A stretch of 64,000 bases of DNA from Marinobacter algicola DG893 (GTDB taxonomy: Bacteria; Pseudomonadota; Gammaproteobacteria; Pseudomonadales; Oleiphilaceae). Within the stretch, counting starts at the first letter, position 1. Each line of letters opens with the position of its first letter. The notes under the pieces were generated by a model. It was not told where the DNA came from. It ran no database searches and saw only the letters and a list, made by a program, of their open reading frames with translations. The stretch covers positions 62,001-126,000 of the forward strand of contig NZ_ABCP01000001.1 of the NCBI RefSeq assembly GCF_000170835.1. The letters run 5' to 3'. The position numbers and the translations under genes were made by a program. Of the stretch, positions 12,214-41,253 are shown piece by piece.

Positions 12214-13527
12214 ATGCCCAGAAAAAAACAACGCCCTTCAATAAAACGGAAACTACTTACTTTCCTGACACTAACGGGTTTCGCGTGTACGGGGCTAGTA
12301 TTTATCTCACACACCCTTTTAATCGATTATATCCACGATGAACTTCACAGACAGCAGTTACAAACCGCAGCTACCCAGCTCTCAAAGGTACTAATAAACA
12401 ATAAGAAAGAAATTACAAAATCTTCTCTCAGAAATTTTTCTTTGTCTCAATATTCTTTTCACATCGAAGGCAGTCAAAGCCAGAATTTTACAAGTGAAAA
12501 CATTAAACCAAAATTACACATAGTAGAGGAGTTTAGAAAACCCGGAATTTTTCACATCTCGGACGACGGTCGATCAATACTTGGTTACAACAAAATATTT
12601 AATGACGGAAAAGATAAAATAAGCGTTACTATAATTGAAAGAAACTCCTACTCACCGAACACACTTGACAAACTCCATGTTGTTATATGGATTATATCTT
12701 TTACAATTCTAGTTACGATATCAATGATCATATTTCTTGGGGTAAATATCGCACTAAAACCTCTAAAACTGATGAGCGCCCAATTAACGTCGCTTAAAAA
12801 AGGTGAGCGCAATAGACTGGATGAGAATGTACCTGAAGAGTTCAATGAACTTGTCAAGCATCTTAATCGCCTACTAGAGTCTTACGACAAAAAACTCACC
12901 CGTTCTCGCCACCTAGCCGCGGATATTTCTCATAGCTTGAAAACACCGCTTGCCGTCATAAACTCCGTGATCAATAACGAAGCTGTCCCCACCACAATCG
13001 TGAGTCAACTTAAGTCTCAACTGTCTGAAATACACGAGCTGATCGACACTCAGATGAGAAAAACCGAGATGGCTGGTCAATACATTGGGAAGGCGACACC
13101 AATCATTGAGAAAGCTCTGGCACTGGTGGATGTAGTCAGTCGAATCTATCCTTACAAACAGATCCACCTTCAAGAAACATTACCCAGAGAGCTTGTCTGG
13201 CCAATTGATGAGCGTGATTTTAATGAGATTTTGGGTAATGTGCTTGATAATGCAAGCAAATGGTGCTCTCAGGAAGTCCATTTACACCTGAAGCTTGACG
13301 ATGACACTTTGACTATTCTTGTTGAAGATGACGGCCCAGGAGTGGCCCCACACCAACTTGCCGATCTCACCAGGCGCCAGAAAAGACTGGACGAAAAAAC
13401 CCCTGGCTATGGCCTTGGCCTATCAATCGTTGAGGAAATCATCAATGACTACGGTGGCGCCATGCATTTTTCTATATCATCCAAAGGTGGTCTTCGGGTT
13501 CTAATCGAGCTTCCAAGAAGCATTTGA
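12214..13527 (+). CDS. PhoQ-like sensor histidine kinase (orphan)
   Basis: About 437 residues: TM1 (about 14-38), a periplasmic sensor of about 115 residues, TM2 (154-180), HAMP linker, HisKA H-box with ISHSLKTPLAV (His about 240), and HATPase_c with N-box GNVLDNASKWC, G1 VEDDGPGVAP and G2 YGLGLSIVEEI. SHSLKTPLAV and GNVLDNA closely resemble PhoQ. No response-regulator gene is adjacent, which is unusual. A TTG 12 bases upstream could extend it by 4 codons; the ATG was chosen. The gene is visibly more AT-rich than its neighbours. A link to the 11-bp repeats at nearby promoters is plausible but unproven. Confidence 0.88.
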   Translation: MPRKKQRPSIKRKLLTFLTLTGFACTGLVFISHTLLIDYIHDELHRQQLQTAATQLSKVLINNKKEITKSSLRNFSLSQYSFHIEGSQSQNFTSENIKPKLHIVEEFRKPGIFHISDDGRSILGYNKIFNDGKDKISVTIIERNSYSPNTLDKLHVVIWIISFTILVTISMIIFLGVNIALKPLKLMSAQLTSLKKGERNRLDENVPEEFNELVKHLNRLLESYDKKLTRSRHLAADISHSLKTPLAVINSVINNEAVPTTIVSQLKSQLSEIHELIDTQMRKTEMAGQYIGKATPIIEKALALVDVVSRIYPYKQIHLQETLPRELVWPIDERDFNEILGNVLDNASKWCSQEVHLHLKLDDDTLTILVEDDGPGVAPHQLADLTRRQKRLDEKTPGYGLGLSIVEEIINDYGGAMHFSISSKGGLRVLIELPRSI

Positions 13528-25058: not shown

Positions 25059-25487
25059 TCAAACCTCCGGGGCTTTGCTGATCCCGGTGTGCAATGACGC
25101 GATGAGAGGGCAGGCAATGTCCCCTTTTTGTTCATGGCACCGGGCAACCATATCGCTCAGAACACTCTCAATTCTTTCCAATTTTTTGATCTTCCCACGC
25201 ACGGACTCCAGTTTGTGCTCGGCCAGGACACTGGCCTCCTGGCAGTGGGCGCCATCTTCCAGTCGAAGCAGGTCGATAATCTCGTCGAGGCTAAAGCCCA
25301 GGTTCTGCGCCGATTTCACGAACGTCAATCGATCAATATCGGCAGAACCGTAGCGTCTGATCCCACCGGGAGGCCGTTGGGGCTCCGTTAACAGGCCCCG
25401 CCGCTGGTAGTAGCGAATGGTCTCGATATGGACACCGCTCGCCTTGGCCAGTCCACCGATAGTCAGTGGTTTTACGTAATTCACCAT
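25059..25487 (-). CDS. merR: Mercury-responsive regulator MerR
   Basis: 142 residues: winged-helix HTH ([20 protein letters not shown]), a long dimerisation helix, and the three Hg-binding cysteines at exactly the classic positions (Cys 82 in HCQEAS, Cys 117 in ARCHEQ, Cys 126 in ACPLIASL). It represses and, with Hg(II), activates the mer operon. Unusually it is downstream of merA and co-directional instead of divergent. Its GGAG ribosome site overlaps the right arm of an operator dyad (25499-25514), suggesting autorepression. Confidence 0.96.
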
Positions 25488-25498
25488 GCGGGCTTACT

Positions 25499-25514
25499 CC
25501 GTAGTTGACTACGG
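25499..25514 (-). promoter_or_regulatory. MerR operator directly upstream of merR
   Basis: Perfect dyad CCGTAG-N4-CTACGG, the same arms as in the merT promoter (27712-27729). The dyad contains the ribosome binding site of merR, so bound MerR would block its own expression. A conventional -35/-10 pair further upstream is not clear. Confidence 0.75.
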
Positions 25515-25584
25515 TATCAGTTTACTTCATCAAACAAGGTCACTAATAGAGCATTTGCCCATGCAATCCATGGGCTGGCTTGCC

Positions 25585-27290
<1,706 letters not shown>

Positions 27291-27303
27291 GATGTATGGC
27301 CTC

Positions 27304-27666
27304 TCAGTAAAATAGCGGTAAGACGAAAGGGAATGCCAACGCGATCAGTACGAGCAGCGCGACGATCCAGAAGGTGATCTTGTAAGCGGTTCGCACTTGC
27401 GGTACTGCGCAGACCTCGCCCGGATCGCAATCCTGTGCAGGCCGGTATATCCGACGCCAGGCAAAGACCATCGCCACCAGAGCAGCACCAATGAACCACG
27501 GCCGGTAGGGCTCCAGAGCGGCAAGGTTGCCAATCCAGGCGCCGGAAATACCCAGCGAGATCAGAACTAGGGGGCCAAGACAGCAGGCCGATGCGAGCAC
27601 TGCTGCCACCCCCCCTGCGACTAACGATCCGCGACCGGATTTGGACTCTGATTTCAACTCTGACAT
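27304..27666 (-). CDS. merT: Mercuric ion transporter MerT
   Basis: About 120 residues, three TM helices. The first holds the paired cysteines ASACCLGPL (Cys 28 and 29) and the cytoplasmic loop another pair (DCDPGEVCA). It imports Hg(II) for reduction by MerA. Longer starts at 27705 and 27684 exist, but the -10 box covers 27704-27709 and AAAGGAA precedes the ATG at 27666, which fixes this start. First gene of merTPA. Confidence 0.95.
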   Translation of the reverse strand: MSELKSESKSGRGSLVAGGVAAVLASACCLGPLVLISLGISGAWIGNLAALEPYRPWFIGAALVAMVFAWRRIYRPAQDCDPGEVCAVPQVRTAYKITFWIVALLVLIALAFPFVLPLFY

Positions 27667-27703
27667 TACGATGGTTCCTTTCATGACTTTTCTGGCTATC
27701 TTC

Positions 27704-27734
27704 AAAATACTTCCGTAGTCGGCTACGGAGTCAA
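27704..27734 (-). promoter_or_regulatory. mer operon promoter-operator
   Basis: Minus strand: TTGACT (27734-27729), 19-bp spacer, TATTTT (27709-27704). The spacer holds the dyad TCCGTAG-N4-CTACGGA. This is the classic MerR-controlled layout and matches the merR operator arms. Confidence 0.93.
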
Positions 27735-27765: not shown

Positions 27766-27797
27766 TTGACCCCGTACCGTGGTACGGGCACTAATGT
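27766..27797 (+). promoter_or_regulatory. MerR-family promoter-operator of the MerR-HMA gene
   Basis: TTGACC (27766-27771), 20-bp spacer, TAATGT (27792-27797). The dyad CCCGTACC-GT-GGTACGGG (27771-27788) is perfect. It is back-to-back with the mer promoter. Its arms differ from both the mer (CCGTAG) and the Pb/Cd-type (ACCCTRTAG) operators, but resemble the one at 38886. Confidence 0.9.
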
Positions 27798-27829: not shown

Positions 27830-28504
27830 ATGACTGACATGACAATTGGCAAAGTGGCTGACGTGGTGGGTGTCGGTGTCGAGACGATTCGTTTTTACGA
27901 ACGCCGCAAGCTCATTGAACAACCGTCACGTCCCAGGGAAGGTGGCTATCGGATTTACTCGGACGCCACGGTAAAGCGATTACATTTTATTCGCCGTGCG
28001 CAAGAGTTGGGGTTCTCCCTGAAAGAGATCGCCGAGCTGCTTGAGCTGCGAGATGCCGACGCCCCCCGCGCCGACGCAAGTAATGTGCAGCAACGGGCAA
28101 TGGCAAAGCTGCGCGATGTAGACCAGAAGATTGACCAGCTACGACAAATCCGACAGGGACTTGCGGCACTTGTGGACCGGTGTCCCGGGCAGGGCCCTTT
28201 GCGGTGCTGCTCCATATTTGAAGCGCTGGAGCAGAACGCAGTACCTGCTAGCAGGCCGACAGTGAGTGAGGAGATAGGCATGCAGACAATCAGGCTTTCA
28301 ATCGGTGGCATGCATTGCCACGGGTGCGAGGAAATTGTCCGTCATGTTCTCGAACAGCAAACAGGTGTAAAGGGATGTTCTGTTTCCCACGAAAGCGGTG
28401 AAGCGCGGGTGGCAGTTGACGAATCAGAAATTTCGGACGAGCAGCTTGCAGAGGCTGTGCGTGGCGCGGGCTATTCTGCAAACATCATGAACATACCAGA
28501 GTAA
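27830..28504 (+). CDS. MerR-family regulator fused to an HMA metal-binding domain
   Basis: 224 residues. Residues 1-75: MerR HTH (TIGKVADVVGVGVETIRFYE). 80-115: dimerisation helix. 118-135: RCPGQGPLRCCSIFEALEQ, close to the ZntR metal-binding tail with Cys 118, 126 and 127. The upstream Cys of ZntR (position 79 there) is replaced by Ala/Asp. 152-224: a complete HMA domain with GGMHCHGCEEIV (Cys 163 and 166). The ATG inside at 28280 is in frame, so the fusion is real at sequence level. It lies behind its own MerR-type operator. The metal is uncertain (Zn/Cd/Hg/Cu). Confidence 0.9.
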   Translation: MTDMTIGKVADVVGVGVETIRFYERRKLIEQPSRPREGGYRIYSDATVKRLHFIRRAQELGFSLKEIAELLELRDADAPRADASNVQQRAMAKLRDVDQKIDQLRQIRQGLAALVDRCPGQGPLRCCSIFEALEQNAVPASRPTVSEEIGMQTIRLSIGGMHCHGCEEIVRHVLEQQTGVKGCSVSHESGEARVAVDESEISDEQLAEAVRGAGYSANIMNIPE

Positions 28505-28620: not shown

Positions 28621-28718
28621 TTTGGCACCAGAGATCGCTTTCGACCGGCCAGTTGCTGACGAAATCTTGCCAAAACACCACTCCGGTCGAACTTCATTTA
28701 GCACTTGGAGTTTGTAAC

Positions 28719-30170
28719 ATGCCTCCACAGATCCACCATGCCATCACATCGCTCGTCGCCGGAACCATACTCATTGCCACTATGCCCGTGAGCGCGACGG
28801 CAAATACCCGTTTTGAGCGCGGCAGTGAGGTATATAGCCAGCAGTGCGCAGCCTGCCATCAGGCACAGGGCCAGGGCATACCGGGTTCGTTTCCGCCCCA
28901 GAAAGGCCACACCGCTGAACTGTACAACGCCACCGACGGCATTGGTGGCCGCCAGTATCTTGGCCACGTGCTGCAATACGGCCTGACGGGTTCCATCGAA
29001 GTGGAGGGCACGACCTACAACGGCAACATGCCCGCCTGGGGCGGTGCGCTCACGGACCAGCAGATCGCGGATGTGCTGAACTACGTGCTGACAGCCTTCG
29101 GCAACGAGCAGCGTCTTGCAGGAGAGTTTCAGCCCTACACCGCTGAGGAGATAAAGGCGATTGCGAGCCAGAACCTGTCCGGCAAGGACGTGTACCAGTT
29201 ACGGCAGGCGGTGCTGGGTCAGTCAACAGCGCCATCCCGGGATGATTCCACCGCCCAGTCGGCGCCAGAGCTGAGCCTGAAGAAGGCCATCCGCGATCCG
29301 CTTTATGTGGCCGTCCAGAACAGCGGTATTGTAAGAGCCTTACCGTCAAAACAAGGCTGGCCCGGCGTGGCAGGGGCACACTACGATGCCCTGAGCCCGG
29401 ATGGCTCTCGCCTGATGGTGTCTGGCTTTAAAACCGGCAACGTCTATGTTCTGGATACGGCCAATGGCGACGTCATGGCCAGTGTGGCGATTGGCGAGGT
29501 GGCCCAGGGCGTCAAGATCTCACCGGATGGCCGCTATGGCCTCGCTGTTGCGCCGACCCAGGGCGACGTTGCGGTGATCGACATGAACACTCTGGAACTG
29601 GTCAAGAAAATTCCGGTTGGCAAGGTACCCCATAACCTCATCTACAGCGCCGACGGCGAATTTGCCTACGTCACTCTGCAGGGCGAAGGCGCGCTGGCGG
29701 TAGTGAATATGCAGACCCTGGAAAAACAGCATCAGATTCCGACGCCGGGGCTTGAGACGCCTCACAACGTTGACATCAGCGCCAACGGCCAACGGCTGTG
29801 GCTGCGCGACTTTACGGGCAATGTGGGCGTGATGGACCTGGCAAGCGAAACCATGCTGAAAACCTTCAAGGTGGGTAGTGGGCATGGCGGTATCGACGTG
29901 GTGCCTGGCGGGCAATACGTCGCAACAGGGGCGATTTCCGCGTCCGCCGTGACCCTGATCGACCCCGAAAGCCTGGAAATTGTCAAGAACGTCGATGTGG
30001 GCGTCGGCCCCCATGGCGTTCGCGCCAGCCGTGACGGCCGGTTCATTTACGCCTCGGTCACGGCGGATAACCAGATCGCCGTGATTGATAGTCAATCCTT
30101 GAAGGTCGTTCGCCGGCAACCCGTGGACGGCAAATTCCCGTTCTGGATTGCGGTTCCCGGCAACCCTTAA
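28719..30170 (+). CDS. Secreted c-type cytochrome fused to a YVTN beta-propeller
   Basis: About 483 residues: signal peptide (1-27, ending VSATA), cytochrome c domain with CAACH (about 43-47) and a likely axial Met in GNMPAWGG, then a seven-blade-type YVTN/cytochrome-d1-like propeller from about 200 (repeats such as GNVYVLDTANGDV and GDVAVIDMNTLELVKKIPVG). The architecture resembles NirS/NirF-like proteins, but d1-heme ligands were not identified. The start was moved to the ATG at 28719, with GGAG 8 bases upstream. It probably transfers electrons in the periplasm. Its promoter matches that of the ECF sigma gene. Confidence 0.85.
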   Translation: MPPQIHHAITSLVAGTILIATMPVSATANTRFERGSEVYSQQCAACHQAQGQGIPGSFPPQKGHTAELYNATDGIGGRQYLGHVLQYGLTGSIEVEGTTYNGNMPAWGGALTDQQIADVLNYVLTAFGNEQRLAGEFQPYTAEEIKAIASQNLSGKDVYQLRQAVLGQSTAPSRDDSTAQSAPELSLKKAIRDPLYVAVQNSGIVRALPSKQGWPGVAGAHYDALSPDGSRLMVSGFKTGNVYVLDTANGDVMASVAIGEVAQGVKISPDGRYGLAVAPTQGDVAVIDMNTLELVKKIPVGKVPHNLIYSADGEFAYVTLQGEGALAVVNMQTLEKQHQIPTPGLETPHNVDISANGQRLWLRDFTGNVGVMDLASETMLKTFKVGSGHGGIDVVPGGQYVATGAISASAVTLIDPESLEIVKNVDVGVGPHGVRASRDGRFIYASVTADNQIAVIDSQSLKVVRRQPVDGKFPFWIAVPGNP

Positions 30171-30186
30171 GAAAAGTGTCGGGACA

Positions 30187-30213
30187 GGGAATAAACTGAA
30201 CACAGGCGACGTC
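30187..30213 (+). promoter_or_regulatory. ECF-sigma-type promoter of the sigma factor gene
   Basis: GGGAATAAA (30187-30195), 14 bp, CGTC (30210-30213). Matches the element at 28594 exactly in the -35 and spacing, indicating autoregulation. Transcription would start near 30220, so the TTG at 30215 is unlikely as start codon. Confidence 0.75.
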
Positions 30214-30253
30214 CTTGGTCAACAAGTCCACCGATTCCAAACGGGTACTTAAA

Positions 30254-30838
30254 ATGCGCAGCACCGGAAGCAGGCAGCAGTTTGACACCCTGGTACGTCC
30301 CTGGCGTTATCGGCTGTACGGTGTGGCGCAACGCCAGTCCGCCTCGCCTGAAATAGCGGAGGACTGGACTCAGGAGACCCTGCTTCGGGCCTGGCGGGAT
30401 TTTGGCCAGTTGGACGACCACGTAGCAATCTATGCCTGGCTGCTCAGAATTCTCAACCGTGTGGTTGCCGATGGCTACCGCCGGGACAATCGGCGGCAGC
30501 AACTGGCCCCGGTGCTCACAACCGAAGACGCCGCACTGAACGAACACCCCTGCGCCGCTCCCGGCCCGTTCGAGCAGGCACTGAAACATCAGACCGATGC
30601 GCAGTTGACGGCCGCCGTTCACGACTTGCCGGACAGCTTCCGGCAGGTGGTTCTGTTGCGGGACTTTGAGGATCTGAGCTATCAGGACATTGCGCAGATT
30701 CTGGACCTGGCGCCGGGCACGGTGATGAGCCGCCTGTCACGAGGCCGCCGCCTGCTGGCCGAGCGACTGATCAAGGTGGCATCCGACAACCCGGCTGCCA
30801 GTAACAACACGCACACAAGGGTGAACCCCCATGAGTGA
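30254..30838 (+). CDS. ECF-family RNA polymerase sigma factor
   Basis: About 194 residues. Region 2 (EDWTQETLLRAWRDFGQL with the downstream ILNRVVADGYRR) and region 4 (LPDSFRQVVLLRDFEDLSY, then QDIAQILDLAPGTVMSRLSR) are typical of ECF sigma factors. The ATG at 30254 was chosen on promoter position. It overlaps the anti-sigma gene by 8 bp. ECF sigma factors are known to control sulfite dehydrogenase genes in Sinorhizobium (RpoE1/RpoE4), which suits this context. Confidence 0.93.
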   Translation: MRSTGSRQQFDTLVRPWRYRLYGVAQRQSASPEIAEDWTQETLLRAWRDFGQLDDHVAIYAWLLRILNRVVADGYRRDNRRQQLAPVLTTEDAALNEHPCAAPGPFEQALKHQTDAQLTAAVHDLPDSFRQVVLLRDFEDLSYQDIAQILDLAPGTVMSRLSRGRRLLAERLIKVASDNPAASNNTHTRVNPHE

Positions 30839-31676
30839 CACGCCTCCTTTCACCTCCGCTACGGAAAACCGTCAATGGTCTGACCTGCACGACCAGATTC
30901 AGGACTGGCTGGCGGGCTATGCCGATGGCGAGCTGGATGAGCATCACACCACTCTGGTTGAAGCTCACCTTGCTGGCTGCGAGGCCTGCCGACACGATGT
31001 CGAACGCCAGCGGATGCTTTCTGAACGACTACAAGAGATACCCGCGCCCAGATTGTCCCCCGCATTTGCCAAGCGCCTCGACGACACGCTTGTAAGCGCC
31101 CAGGCCAGTAACAAGCGCCCGATCGGCCACCGGCCACTGACGGGCCTGAAACACTGGCTAGCCCGCCTGAGCCCATCAGCTGTAATCGGAGGCGGCGGCT
31201 GGGCGGTGGCCATGGTGCTGGCGGCGATGCTTCTGGTACCCAACCTGGCGCCCGACCGTTCCAATCAGATTGCGGTGGCCAATCACATTCCCATGGTCAG
31301 CGACGTGCTGGCCGATTATCAGCGTGCGGTGGGCAACGACCTGCCAACGCCGTCTCGCGACGCCGACCTGTCGCCTCCCATGCCATGGCCCAATGGCCGC
31401 GTTCTGGCCCGCTGGACAACCAGCGTAGGTGGCGAGCCCGCCGAGGCCTACGCCGTGCGGCTGGGCAACAGCTTGATCGTTCAGTACCAAATCTCAGAGC
31501 GCGTGTTCTTCCGAAATCCGGACGTGCGACAGGCCGTGGCCCGTGCCGGCGATTTTCGAACTCGTGACAACGAGCTGGAAGTGATTGGGGTGCCGATGCA
31601 GGCATCGGGCTTATTGGTTGTGGCGCCATCAGGTAATCTGCCACCAATCGACAAGTCAGCGATGAGTGCTTCCTGA
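30831..31676 (+). CDS. Membrane anti-sigma factor with zinc-binding domain
   Basis: 281 residues: cytoplasmic ZAS motif (EHHTTLVEAHLAGCEACRHD, about 43-62; HxxxCxxC type), a TM helix around 120-142 (WAVAMVLAAMLLVPNLA) and a periplasmic sensor domain. It holds the ECF sigma factor inactive until a periplasmic signal arrives. The start overlaps the sigma gene, which implies coupled synthesis. The signal is unknown; sulfite is a reasonable guess from the adjacent sulfite dehydrogenase. Confidence 0.9.
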   Translation: MSDTPPFTSATENRQWSDLHDQIQDWLAGYADGELDEHHTTLVEAHLAGCEACRHDVERQRMLSERLQEIPAPRLSPAFAKRLDDTLVSAQASNKRPIGHRPLTGLKHWLARLSPSAVIGGGGWAVAMVLAAMLLVPNLAPDRSNQIAVANHIPMVSDVLADYQRAVGNDLPTPSRDADLSPPMPWPNGRVLARWTTSVGGEPAEAYAVRLGNSLIVQYQISERVFFRNPDVRQAVARAGDFRTRDNELEVIGVPMQASGLLVVAPSGNLPPIDKSAMSAS

Positions 31677-31791
31677 CCCGACCTCGGTGGTTATTTTCTA
31701 ATCACCCCCTACACTTAACTCATGCATTCGCAATCAGCCCAACAACAAAAACCGGATTCAGTCCGGGATGATCAACAATGAGGGAAATACC

Positions 31792-33021
31792 ATGTCGATC
31801 AATGATTCGCCCGCCATTGCCTCCCAGTCTCCGGCAGAGCCAGTCCAAATGAGCCGTCGACGCCTTTTATTGGGCTCCGCCGGTGCCATGGCATCCGTCA
31901 GCCTGCTCGGGCTCAGCCCACTGGCCAAAGCGGCAGAACCCAAAACCCTGCCCGACTACGTGCGCTGGAAAAACGCCAATGACATGATCGTGCACAGCGC
32001 CAATACCATCGAAACCCAGCGCGGTGCCGTTGGTAGCGGTGTGGTGACTGCCAGCGACAAGCTTTATGTCAGAAACAACCTACCAGCCCCCGACGCTAAC
32101 ATCGTGGCGGACCGGGATGCGTGGAAAATCACGTTCGAAGGCGTCAACTCACCGCAGTCCCTGACTCTTGGCGACCTTAAAAAGATCGGCGTCGAAACCG
32201 TGACCACTGTGCTTCAGTGTTCAGGAAACGGGCGGGCCTACTACGAGCATGGGCCAGGTGGCACCCAGTGGGGCACGGGCGCAGCAGGCTGCTTGATCTG
32301 GACGGGTGTGCCACTGCGGGAGGTTGTCGCAAAACTCGGCGGCGTTAAACCCGGGATGAATTACATCACCAGCACTGGCGGGGAAACCCTTCCCGAGGGA
32401 CTGGATCCGAACACCATTATGGTTGAGCGGTCTGTTCCGGTAAAAGCGCTCGATCAAGCGCTGCTGGCCTGGGACATGAATGATGAGCCCATGCCTCTGG
32501 CCCACGGCGGCCCATTGCGTATGGTTGTGCCCGGCTATTTCGGGGTCAACAACGTGAAATACGTGGACCGGGTTGCATTCACCGAGGGCCAGTCGGACGC
32601 CAAGATTCAGGCCTCCGGCTATCGCATTCGTCCCATTGGCGAGAAAGGAGCACCCGACCAGCCGTCCATGTGGGAAATGTCCGTTAAATCCTGGGTCACG
32701 GCTCCCCTGACCACCGCCAGCCAGGGCAAAAACCTGATATACGGCGTCGCCTTCGGCGGCATGAACGCTGTCAGCAAGGTGGAGGTGTCAGCCGACGGTG
32801 GTGAAACCTGGAAGAAGGCCCGCTTTCTGGGACCCGACATGGGGCGCTATGCCTGGCGGCCGTTTGTGGTGTCGATGGACCTGAGCGCCGGCGATCATCG
32901 GATTGTCAGCCGCGCAACCGACACCGACGGCAATACCCAGCCGCCCACACGTACTGAAAACGAGCGCGGTTACGGCAACACCAGTTGGAAAGACCATGGC
33001 GTGACCGTCACCGTTTCATGA
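31792..33021 (+). CDS. sorA: Sulfite dehydrogenase molybdenum subunit (SorA/SoxC-like)
   Basis: About 409 residues. Tat-type signal SRRRLLLGSAG (about 21-31). Oxidoreductase molybdopterin domain with the Mo-ligating Cys in TVLQCSGNGR (Cys 143), followed by the dimerisation domain. It oxidises sulfite to sulfate in the periplasm. The ATG at 31792 follows GAGGGA. The downstream mono-heme cytochrome completes a SorAB pair. SoxC of thiosulfate oxidation is the alternative, but no other sox gene is present. Confidence 0.85.
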   Translation: MSINDSPAIASQSPAEPVQMSRRRLLLGSAGAMASVSLLGLSPLAKAAEPKTLPDYVRWKNANDMIVHSANTIETQRGAVGSGVVTASDKLYVRNNLPAPDANIVADRDAWKITFEGVNSPQSLTLGDLKKIGVETVTTVLQCSGNGRAYYEHGPGGTQWGTGAAGCLIWTGVPLREVVAKLGGVKPGMNYITSTGGETLPEGLDPNTIMVERSVPVKALDQALLAWDMNDEPMPLAHGGPLRMVVPGYFGVNNVKYVDRVAFTEGQSDAKIQASGYRIRPIGEKGAPDQPSMWEMSVKSWVTAPLTTASQGKNLIYGVAFGGMNAVSKVEVSADGGETWKKARFLGPDMGRYAWRPFVVSMDLSAGDHRIVSRATDTDGNTQPPTRTENERGYGNTSWKDHGVTVTVS

Positions 33022-33087
33022 ACGCGTGAACCCTGTGGCGGTCCGCCCATCGGGCCGCCTGTTTCCTTGACCTAACCAGGATTTTCT

Positions 33088-33402
33088 ATGTCACTACGCA
33101 CATTGTTATTCGCTGTACTTGCCTCTGCGTCTGCCACTTCGATGGCGGACGAGCAACTCGAACTCGGCAAGAAAGTGTTCACCGAGCAGGCTCAACCTTC
33201 CTGCACCATCTGCCACGCACTGAACGACGCAGGATCGGCTGGCGAAATCGGCCCCAATCTGGACGAACTCAAACCTTCTGCGGAGCAGGTCAGCAATGCG
33301 GTGAAGAGTGGCGTTGGTATCATGCCGGCCTTCGGTGATTCGCTGTCAGAGCAGCAGATCAAGGCGGTTGCACACTATGTTGAATCTGTAACCGGGAAAT
33401 AA
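33088..33402 (+). CDS. sorB: Mono-heme cytochrome c subunit of sulfite dehydrogenase (SorB-like)
   Basis: 104 residues: signal peptide (about 1-20, TSMADE), heme motif SCTICHALNDAG (CxxCH about 39-43) and a C-terminal axial Met in GIMPAFGDSLSEQQI. It accepts electrons from SorA. It follows sorA by 66 bp and converges on the multicopper oxidase gene. Confidence 0.87.
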   Translation: MSLRTLLFAVLASASATSMADEQLELGKKVFTEQAQPSCTICHALNDAGSAGEIGPNLDELKPSAEQVSNAVKSGVGIMPAFGDSLSEQQIKAVAHYVESVTGK

Positions 33403-38600: not shown

Positions 38601-38745
38601 GACGTGCGCAACCATATTGAACCCGGGAAAGACGGACAAACGATGGGTGCAAAGGTTAGCCCGTCCGATGTCAGGGCTGCGTGGGGGGTTCATCAAAAAA
38701 GTGTCAAAGTAAAAGCGTATGACACCAACGGCTTTTGACCATAGC

Positions 38746-38836
38746 GGCGTGGGCTATTCAGCAAACTTCATGAAGACAACAGAGTAACCCCTTGGAATTT
38801 TCAGTTGCCTTGCCTCTGGCCATCGGCCCTGAGTAT
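38746..38836 (+). pseudogene. Decayed copy of the end of the MerR-HMA gene
   Basis: The stretch reads GVGYSANFMKTTE then stop (stop at 38785-38787), matching GAGYSANIMNIPE-stop at the end of the gene at 27830. The similarity continues about 50 bp past the stop (28505-28553 against 38788-38836). No upstream coding part remains. Confidence 0.78.
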
Positions 38837-38885
38837 ATGGCCTTCGTTGAGCCCTGTTTCGCCGGGCTTCACACTCTACAGACCC

Positions 38886-38917
38886 TTGACTCCGTATCAT
38901 GGTACGGACCCTACACT
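38886..38917 (+). promoter_or_regulatory. MerR-family promoter-operator of the HMA/outer-membrane/NHL operon
   Basis: TTGACT (38886-38891), 20-bp spacer, TACACT (38912-38917). The dyad TCCGTA-N6-TACGGA lies at 38891-38908. Spacing and arms resemble the operator at 27766, so the MerR-HMA protein is a candidate regulator. It sits in the 464-bp gap between gtrA and the HMA gene, which otherwise holds only the decayed MerR-HMA end. Confidence 0.8.
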
Positions 38918-39064
38918 TGGCAGAAGCCGGCCCTGTTTTTCAATACGGTGGCGAGCGTGAGTGACTAAAAAAGCTGGTTGTCAAAAAAGTGCGTGATTCA
39001 GCTCATGCGCTAGAGTCAGCGCCAAGTGTCAAGCTGTATGCATATATCCATAGAGAGGTTCGTC

Positions 39065-39382
39065 ATGTTCACAAAAATGTCCCTGCTGTTAGCCGCTCTG
39101 GTGTTCAGCGTTTCCGCGCTGGCGGCCGAAAATCACTATCGACTGGGCGTAAACGGACTGGCATGTCCGTTTTGTGCCTATGGCATTGAGAAGCGCCTGA
39201 ACAAGATCGACGGTGTCACCGAGGTGCGGGTGGACATTGGTGACAGCGTGGTACAGGTAACCCTGAAAGAGGGCAACACACTCACCGAAGAGCAGGCGCG
39301 CCGGGCCGTTGATGAGGCTGGCTTCACGCTGCGATCCTACGCAGAGGTTGACGGCGAAACCGGAGGTGGCAATGCTGAATAA
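39065..39382 (+). CDS. Periplasmic HMA-domain metal-binding protein
   Basis: About 105 residues: signal peptide (1-21, SVSALA) and an HMA domain with VNGLACPFCAYGIEKRL (Cys 34 and 37; CxxC with PF between). It is MerP-like in size and location, but the CPFC loop differs from MerP. The ATG at 39065 has GAGAGG upstream. First gene of a three-gene set and overlaps the next gene by 11 bp. It probably captures a soft metal in the periplasm. Confidence 0.87.
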   Translation: MFTKMSLLLAALVFSVSALAAENHYRLGVNGLACPFCAYGIEKRLNKIDGVTEVRVDIGDSVVQVTLKEGNTLTEEQARRAVDEAGFTLRSYAEVDGETGGGNAE

Positions 39383-40289
39383 CAACCATTCCGTTCGCAA
39401 TTCCATGCTGGCTAGCGCTCTGATACTGACCGGTGTATCTGTAGTACAAGCCGCCCCCAACACGTTCAACACTGCCCTACCCGTGCCACAAGGCGAAACC
39501 ATCTGGCGCGAGCAACTGGTGCTGCGGGAACGCTCCGATGACGGGCCCATGGACCGCGAAGTCTCGGTACAGGCCCTGGGCAGCGTACTGGGTTACGGCG
39601 TGACCCCGAAGCTCGCGGTGTTTGGGGTCGTCCCCTACTTCTTCAACAAGGAACTGGATGTCTCCACGCCAATGGGCCGGATTAGCCGTGATACTAATGG
39701 CATCGGCGACGTCTCGTTGTTCGGTCGTTACACAGCTTACCAATACGATTTCACCGGCGGAACCTTTCGGGTCGCGCCACTGTTTGGGGTCACTGCGCCC
39801 ACTGGAGACAGTGACGATCGCGATCGTTTCGGCGAACTGCCGCGACCGTTGCAGGTCGGCGACGGGGCCTGGGATGGCTTTGCCGGCGTGGTGGCCACCT
39901 ATCAGAGACTGCAATACCAAATGGACGCGCAGTTACTTTACCGCGGAAACGGGCGCCACGACGGCTTCGCCCACGGCGACGAGACCCGCCTCGACGCCTC
40001 ACTGCAATACCGGATCTGGCCTTTCAGCCTTGAAGGCATCTCCGGCACACCCGGCTTTACCTACGCCCTGCTCGAATCCAGTCTTGTTCACCGCGAGCGC
40101 AACGAGATTAGCACTGGTACCGATGCCAACTCCGGCGGCACCCAGTGGCTGCTGGCGCCGGGTCTTCAGTTCATCACCCGGCGCTGGGTCGTTGAGGGCA
40201 CGATACAACTGCCCGTGGCCGAGGACCCCAATGGCGACGCCATTCAGGACGATTACATTGTTCGCGTTGGCTTTCGCCGCAATTTCTAG
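39372..40289 (+). CDS. Outer-membrane beta-barrel protein of the MetA/phenol-degradation type
   Basis: About 305 residues: signal peptide (to about 27, VVQAAP), then a barrel with FGVTAPTGDSDDRDRFGE and a terminal Phe (VRVGFRRNF). It resembles the Phenol_MetA_deg/transporter family of outer-membrane proteins, whose substrates are mostly unknown. Its start lies within the end of the HMA gene, so the two are co-translated. It could be an outer-membrane exit or entry for a metal bound by the HMA protein (inference). Confidence 0.75.
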   Translation: MLNNNHSVRNSMLASALILTGVSVVQAAPNTFNTALPVPQGETIWREQLVLRERSDDGPMDREVSVQALGSVLGYGVTPKLAVFGVVPYFFNKELDVSTPMGRISRDTNGIGDVSLFGRYTAYQYDFTGGTFRVAPLFGVTAPTGDSDDRDRFGELPRPLQVGDGAWDGFAGVVATYQRLQYQMDAQLLYRGNGRHDGFAHGDETRLDASLQYRIWPFSLEGISGTPGFTYALLESSLVHRERNEISTGTDANSGGTQWLLAPGLQFITRRWVVEGTIQLPVAEDPNGDAIQDDYIVRVGFRRNF

Positions 40290-40317
40290 GACTTGAGGGC
40301 ACGATTTTGAGGGCACT

Positions 40318-41253
40318 ATGAAGAAAATGGGTAAGCGGTTTGCCTACAGCACGCTCGGGCTCGCGATAGCACTCACCCTGCTCGGCTGCGCGGGCGGCGC
40401 CATCAACTGGAACCAGGAACCGCCCTACTCGCGGTCTCTTGCGTGGGGTGAAAAAGGCAGCGGCCCGGGGCAGTTCAACGACCCTACCGGCATTGCAGTG
40501 ACGGCCGATGAAGTATATATCGCGGATGCACGCAACAGCCGCATCCAGGTCTTTGACAAGCAAGGCAAGTTCCGGCGGGCCTTTGGGGGGGACATACTCG
40601 GCCGCCCGATGAACATGGATATCGCCGGCAACCGACTTTACGTTCCTGACTATTTCAAGGACGTGATTCACGTTTTCACGCTGGCCGGCGAGTACTGCGA
40701 AGCGATCAAAACGGACGACGGATTAACCAGCCCGGGGGGCCTGGCGGTGCGCGATGACGGCACGTTGCTGATTGCCGATACCTACGGACAGCGGGTGGTC
40801 CATCTCGCACCAGATGGCGAAGTGCTCAGAAGCTGGGCAGGCACTGGCATCGGTGCAGGCGACTTCAACTACCCCACGGATATCGCCATTGCGCCTGATG
40901 GTGGTTTCTACGTCGCCGACGGCTATAACGACCGGATCCAGCAGTTCGACCCAGACGGAGAGTTCGTTCGCAAATGGGGCGGCCCGTTCGCAATGAACAT
41001 CTACGGGCCGTTCAAAGGCTGGTTTACCACAGTGACGTCGGTCGCCGTAGGGCTAGAAGGGAGTGTCTACGCAGCCGATTTTTACAACGACCGCATTCAG
41101 AAATTCACGGCTGAAGGCGACTATCTCACCGCATTTGGTAGCGAGCCGGCTAACGCCGGGCATACCGCAATGGCGGTTGCCGTTGATAATGAAGGAACCG
41201 TGTGGAGCGTCAATTTCGCCGACAACCGTGTCGAAAAGTGGCAACCGGATTAG
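40318..41253 (+). CDS. NHL-repeat beta-propeller lipoprotein
   Basis: 311 residues: lipobox LTLLGC (Cys 24), then NHL repeats (for example GPGQFNDPTGIAVTADEVY, YIADARNSRIQVF, FYVADGYNDRIQQFDPDG) forming a six-blade-type propeller. It starts 28 bp after the outer-membrane gene and converges with the vibrioferrin operon (4-bp overlap of the ends). NHL propellers bind proteins or ligands; the role here is unknown. Confidence 0.85.
   Translation: MKKMGKRFAYSTLGLAIALTLLGCAGGAINWNQEPPYSRSLAWGEKGSGPGQFNDPTGIAVTADEVYIADARNSRIQVFDKQGKFRRAFGGDILGRPMNMDIAGNRLYVPDYFKDVIHVFTLAGEYCEAIKTDDGLTSPGGLAVRDDGTLLIADTYGQRVVHLAPDGEVLRSWAGTGIGAGDFNYPTDIAIAPDGGFYVADGYNDRIQQFDPDGEFVRKWGGPFAMNIYGPFKGWFTTVTSVAVGLEGSVYAADFYNDRIQKFTAEGDYLTAFGSEPANAGHTAMAVAVDNEGTVWSVNFADNRVEKWQPD

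Follow-up and report, generated by a model that had tools for sequence, protein, structure and literature searches.

An HMA protein, outer-membrane barrel and NHL propeller gene trio of Marinobacter algicola DG893 as a putative accessory set of MerR-type metal resistance

The window analyzed here, a stretch of 64,000 nucleotides from Marinobacter algicola DG893, contains three closely packed genes on the forward strand, which encode a periplasmic HMA protein (39065-39382; 105 amino acids, with a CPFC motif and a signal peptide recognized by eye), a COG4313/MetA-type outer-membrane β-barrel (39372-40289; 305 amino acids) and an NHL β-propeller with a lipobox (40318-41253; 311 amino acids; LLGC, by eye). 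The HMA and barrel genes overlap by 11 bp and 28 bp separate the barrel and NHL genes. All three had been placed correctly in the original prediction, and Pfam supports the HMA and NHL assignments: the HMA protein, which carries CxxC, passes PF00403 (37.0 bits, cut-off 24.8), and the NHL protein passes PF01436 (91.7 bits, cut-off 20). Within the trio, invariant soft-metal ligands are confined to the HMA protein, whose C34 and C37 are unchanged in 52 aligned rows (the window plus 51 of 83 candidates). Like MerP, it is a periplasmic HMA domain with CxxC, but it differs in its CPFC/CPYC motif. The possibility that the trio represents standard mer genes was rejected, since the HMA protein scores 38.1 bits with the MerP model TIGR02052 (cut-off 92.55), the barrel has no NCBIfam match and the NHL protein matches no mer model; the view that this is not one of the standard metal-resistance sets thus holds where mer is concerned.

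The NHL protein was modeled on an alignment of the window sequence and 53 of 58 candidates, giving a predicted structure (pLDDT 94.7) whose 24 strands are taken to form six four-stranded blades. M98 is nearly invariant in the NHL alignment, which has no invariant cysteine, methionine or histidine. A strict lipobox pattern fits 10 of the 58 NHL proteins, including all five from Marinobacter; most of the remainder seem, by eye, to be anchored through an N-terminal helix, and in a few the pattern overlooked a cysteine.

The window barrel itself has no Pfam match at E<=1, while both close relatives that were tested pass PF13557 (L004, 54.5 bits; L013, 26.1 bits; cut-off 22). An AlphaFold2 model built on 61 sequences (the window plus 60 of 80 loci; pLDDT 84.9, pTM 0.80) predicts that it folds like a COG4313 channel, as it superimposes on 4rl8 with a Z of 26.3 and an rmsd of 2.3 Å over 248 residues (Foldseek E 3e-9); a sequence search of the PDB with the barrel gave no match below E 0.27. 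The model contains 14 strand pieces by DSSP, and the Pput2725 fold is 12-stranded. Residues 1-35, the region tested for a lumen-folded N-terminus, have a pLDDT below 50. The barrel alignment, like that of the NHL protein, has no invariant cysteine, methionine or histidine. The trio barrel differs from the known COG4313/Phenol_MetA_deg (PF13557) channels (Pput2725, SphA and TcpY) in its linkage to HMA and MerR genes and in a conserved TFNTALPV stretch that, by eye, lies near the mature N-terminus. A similar barrel fold (Z 23.9) is seen in FapF, whose PDB title describes an amyloid secretion channel.

A MerR-type promoter precedes the trio, as had been predicted, with an operator at 38886-38917 on the forward strand (TTGACT and TACACT separated by 20 bp; dyad TCCGTAT-CATG-GTACGGA, 6/6). 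In the available excerpts of the source, the proteobacterial MerR(Hg) consensus is given as TCCGTAC-(4)-GTACGGA within a 19-bp spacer (PMC1526738); the trio site matches it at 13 of 14 half-site letters, but its spacer is 20 bp rather than 19. The predicted trio operator thus departs little from the MerR(Hg) consensus, as do two operators 11 kb away that serve a local mer cluster. One of these (27704-27734, reverse strand, 19-bp spacer) belongs to the merT, merP, merA and merR genes at 25059-27705 on the reverse strand, and the other (27766-27797, forward strand) precedes a merR-HMA fusion gene (27830-28504, forward strand), whose product is a candidate regulator of the trio. The dyads of the trio and of merR-HMA are identical but for two positions. 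A strict operator scan of the 64 kb found the trio site and only three more: those of merT and merR-HMA, and a weaker MerR-operator-like site at 12857 on the minus strand (20-bp spacer, dyad 5/6).

The merR-HMA gene is divergent from merT and consists of merR fused to a C-terminal HMA domain (GGMHCHGC); the same fusion occurs in two other Marinobacter loci (L031 and L032) and on plasmid pSMR5 of Marinobacter salarius. The best NCBIfam regulator match of its product is MerR(Hg), at 127.5 bits and so below the cut-off of 150.85, and the first Hg-type cysteine is absent from the protein by eye.

Comparison with these relatives indicates that the window copy is a deletion derivative. In L032 (Marinobacter alexandrii) and L031 (a Marinobacter MAG), the genes for merR-HMA, a DsbD-like protein, a P-type ATPase, the HMA protein, the barrel and the NHL protein are contiguous, with an operator before the ATPase gene and mer genes adjoining the set. 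The trio operator of the window aligns with the operator before the ATPase gene in L031, L032 and pSMR5, and directly behind it the last codons (3′ end) of a P-type ATPase gene remain at 38918-38968 (forward strand). At 38744-38861 (forward strand) lies a further remnant, in which the 3′ end of merR-HMA occurs for a second time and the beginning of a DsbD-like gene, since lost, can be recognized by eye. Judged from these alignments, a deletion removed the ATPase gene from the window copy and left only the ends of the missing genes. Relocation of the lost ATPase within the genome was rejected, since no close copy was found among its 104 contigs and the four strongest matches are 32-41% identical. 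The earlier statement that the set has no inner-membrane transporter therefore stands for the trio of the window, where the intervening genes have been deleted, but not as a general trait, given the contiguous ATPase of L031 and L032.

About 10 kb (28.55-38.75 kb) separates merR-HMA from the remnant. Part of this interval (28653-33402) is a block encoding a cytochrome d1-like protein, an ECF sigma factor, a zf-HC2 protein, a sulfite-oxidase-like molybdoenzyme and a cytochrome c. The order of this block is repeated on pSMR5, between merR-HMA and a DsbD-ATPase-HMA-barrel region that merT, merP and merA adjoin. The pSMR5 barrel gene matches query residues 1-128 only; in this record (L115, 8001-8420), the first part of the barrel gene is followed by crcB, and no NHL gene is annotated there.

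A profile scan for the barrel across genome contigs of 84,980 species, with one genome per species, recovered 145 relatives, and the loci of the best 80 of these were fetched (judging by record names, no fewer than four assemblies contributed two loci apiece). When same-strand matches separated by at most 400 bp were treated as one run, HMA shared the run with the barrel in 72 of the 80 loci, NHL in 54 and both in 51, figures that are counts of presence because the profiles were built from the same loci. The conserved co-occurrence on which the original prediction depended is thus borne out. The same runs also contain MerR (36 loci), MerT-like (23), a second barrel type (21), Trx-like (19), DsbD-like (13), reductase (6) and ATPase (6) matches, and counts over the whole fetched stretches are 58 for MerR, 24 for MerT-like, 23 for ATPase matches, 22 for MerT and 18 for MerF. 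Record titles place the trio loci in gamma-, beta- and zetaproteobacteria, Nitrospinota, Nitrospirota, Desulfobacterales and SAR324, although single titles may be wrong because most loci are MAGs; on the strength of this recurrence, the possibility that the trio genes are chance neighbors was rejected.

A sample of 369 genomes of the class was also searched with the NHL profile, which was found in 22 genomes at E<=1e-40 and in 18 at E<=1e-120. Among the latter, 17 have an HMA profile match within 2 kb, the remaining one being cut by a contig end, and 17 have a barrel match within 5 kb; this sample is not independent, as 10 of the 18 genomes were profile rows fetched for their barrel, and it shares the DNA of three loci with the barrel set (L055, L058 and L085). 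In the eight NHL genomes outside the profile, HMA lies within 2 kb in all eight and a barrel match within 5 kb in seven, and the eighth (G296, locus L123) has a barrel of the second type beside HMA and NHL. The HMA/NHL set occurs with this other barrel type in L117, L120, L122 and L123. Spread by known plasmids was considered and rejected, since the barrel was found in only 7 of 72,556 plasmid records and the HMA gene in 6; NHL matches occur in 40 plasmid records, all less than 60% identical, and among the 25 listed none is annotated as a metal gene.

Operators of the MerR type also recur. In the 75 loci examined (five with less than 250 nt upstream were dropped), a TTGAC/19-20/TAnnnT site with a dyad of at least 5/6 precedes the run in 39, as against 78 of 2250 random pieces from the same loci, the upstream site belonging in some loci to merR or merT because the run begins with that gene. 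A crude sorting of operators in the run and upstream of it divided all 80 loci into 10 mer-like, 21 ZntR-like, 14 other and 35 with none. NHL is present in 10 of the 10 mer-like loci, and MerT-like or Trx in none, whereas the 21 ZntR-like loci include 8 with NHL, 12 with MerT-like and 11 with Trx. These differing partners suggest that there may be at least two branches of the trio, with different inducers.

Taken with the local operators, these patterns are consistent with the trio being an accessory envelope module of MerR-controlled soft-metal resistance, which here would most likely act on Hg(II), a tentative reading to which we assign a probability of about 0.42. We infer a route in which the HMA protein would bind metal in the periplasm through its CPFC motif, the metal, most likely in a neutral or ligand-bound form, would cross the outer membrane through the COG4313-type barrel, and the membrane-tethered NHL propeller could hold or couple the HMA protein and the barrel. 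An inner-membrane partner (MerT, MerT-like or MerF, or elsewhere an atypical P-type ATPase) and MerA would complete this route. Neutral mercury species are fairly lipophilic, and a COG4313-type barrel is therefore a plausible path for them. The mer operon (MerT/MerP/MerA with MerR) shares similar operator half-sites and a periplasmic HMA protein with the trio, to which it is frequently linked; what sets the trio apart is its outer-membrane barrel and its NHL propeller.

The link to mercury in particular is drawn from gene neighborhoods and genome content. ORFs ending in a MerA-type cysteine pair are found in 23 of the 80 loci, and the other 57 show none within the fetched DNA (14 of the 80 stretches are shorter than 8 kb and 29 are at least 20 kb). 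Among the long reductase-like proteins (28 of 32), 18 match TIGR02053 and 21 match NF010311 at E<=1e-130, while a few instead match models of glutathione reductase or of other oxidoreductases. The trio lies directly behind merA in four loci, with 74 bp (L033, Marinobacter), 115 bp (L083, Candidatus Nitrotoga), 18 bp (L097, Aromatoleum) or 59 bp (L108, Rugosibacter) between the merA stop and the first possible HMA start. MerA scores over its cut-off in 14 of the 18 NHL genomes as against 59 of 351 others (Fisher p 7e-8, kinship ignored), and in 10 of 14 close-barrel genomes as against 63 of 355 others (p 2.7e-5, kinship likewise ignored); it lies no more than 20 kb from NHL in 7 of the 18.

A rather doubtful alternative is that the trio serves copper, silver or gold (or Zn, Cd or Pb in the ZntR-like branch), and that its linkage to mer reflects mere clustering of metal-resistance genes. 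This explanation would account for the ZntR-like operators in 21 of the 80 loci and for the regulators, as the Hg-type three-cysteine pattern is found in only 8 of 38 MerR proteins inside trio runs (37 of 81 in the fetched stretches), many of the others read NLC..GCPI with the first cysteine missing, and the local merR-HMA product also lacks this residue by eye. In addition, the ATPase linked to the trio scores above the cut-off of the copper model TIGR01511 (467.5 against 397 bits), but also above that of the cadmium model TIGR01512 (401.0 against 313.5 bits). However, the four loci with the trio behind merA, the MerA enrichment in both sets of genomes, the closeness of the window operator to the MerR(Hg) consensus and the best score of merR-HMA with the MerR(Hg) model, albeit under its cut-off, all argue for mercury. 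The accessory-module reading is in turn weakened by these regulator and operator counts, by the 57 loci that show no MerA-type ORF, by the 28 that show neither an import-type partner nor a long ATPase, by the lack of invariant cysteine, methionine or histidine in the barrel and NHL proteins, and by the low standing of the solved COG4313 channel Pput2725 as a passage for hydrophilic molecules; the count of Hg-type regulators inside trio runs lowered its probability and raised that of the other metals.

The direction of transport is addressed by the inner-membrane partners. Contrary to the notion of a stand-alone set, MerT, MerT-like or MerF proteins occur in 47 of the 80 fetched stretches and a long P-type ATPase in 14, with both in 9 and neither in 28. 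In 13 of the 15 long P-type ATPases in these stretches, MGYPC replaces the usual CPC (L031, L032, L043, two in L044, L054, L058, L062, L064, L072, L078, L079 and L089), and the YPC motif is not mentioned among the matches listed in the open-licence literature. Disposal from the periplasm to the outside, in which a P-type ATPase pumps the metal into the periplasm, the HMA protein takes it and the barrel lets it exit, is unlikely, even though the operator, ATPase, HMA, barrel and NHL genes are contiguous in L031 and L032 and the long ATPases with their unusual motif would fit such a role. Against it stand the greater number of loci with import-type partners, the trios placed directly behind merA, the loss of the ATPase from the window and the presence of ATPase matches inside the run in only 6 of the 80 loci. 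Inward capture and hand-over towards MerT/MerA is slightly preferred, because import-type partners outnumber long ATPases by 47 loci to 14; outward disposal would be most plausible in loci that have the ATPase.

A very improbable reading makes the barrel an entry route for a hydrophobic organic ligand or an organometal and gives the HMA and NHL proteins a part in sensing or in protecting the envelope instead of in metal flow. The tight linkage to HMA and metal regulators speaks against it; in its favor, the barrel has no conserved metal ligands and, in the available excerpts of one study, COG4313 channels are implicated in the uptake of hydrophobic molecules (PMC4493636). The same excerpts describe the solved channel Pput2725 as crossed in vitro by ions and certain small molecules, and judge it an unlikely channel for hydrophilic molecules (PMC4493636).

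Passage of mercury across the outer membrane is usually taken to be diffusion. A bolder form of the mercury reading, which is possible but doubtful, is that the trio represents an unrecognised outer-membrane branch of mercury or soft-metal resistance, in which a COG4313 channel, a periplasmic chaperone and a propeller adaptor would move mercury species across this membrane. If so, mer-type detoxification would gain a regulated outer-membrane step, with bearing on the entry or exit of mercury complexes in Gram-negative cells, on mercury cycling and on mercury-capturing strains, and a function would be suggested for a widespread COG4313 subfamily and for an NHL family now named by its repeat only. 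Two papers on mer each use the term "outer membrane" a single time, and in both the place is a figure legend (PMC3466566, PMC8261052). MerG, an accessory mer gene for phenylmercury, is tied to cell permeability in excerpts of the literature, a likeness by description only (PMC3737084, PMC3466566). The trio is undescribed among the matches listed in the open-licence literature, a scope narrower than print as a whole, and does not appear in the excerpts of seven related papers (PMC8261052, PMC3466566, PMC4493636, PMC6775863, PMC3737084, PMC1526738, PMC11371751).

A related type of cluster is also seen among the fetched loci. In L036, L055, L066, L067, L086, L087, L095 and L098, the HMA and barrel genes are accompanied by MerT-like and Trx-like genes, the MerT-like protein of L066 scoring 16.7 bits against the Pfam MerT cut-off of 32.9. 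These clusters have a MerR without the first Hg-type cysteine, and most also contain a second barrel and a DsbD-like gene.
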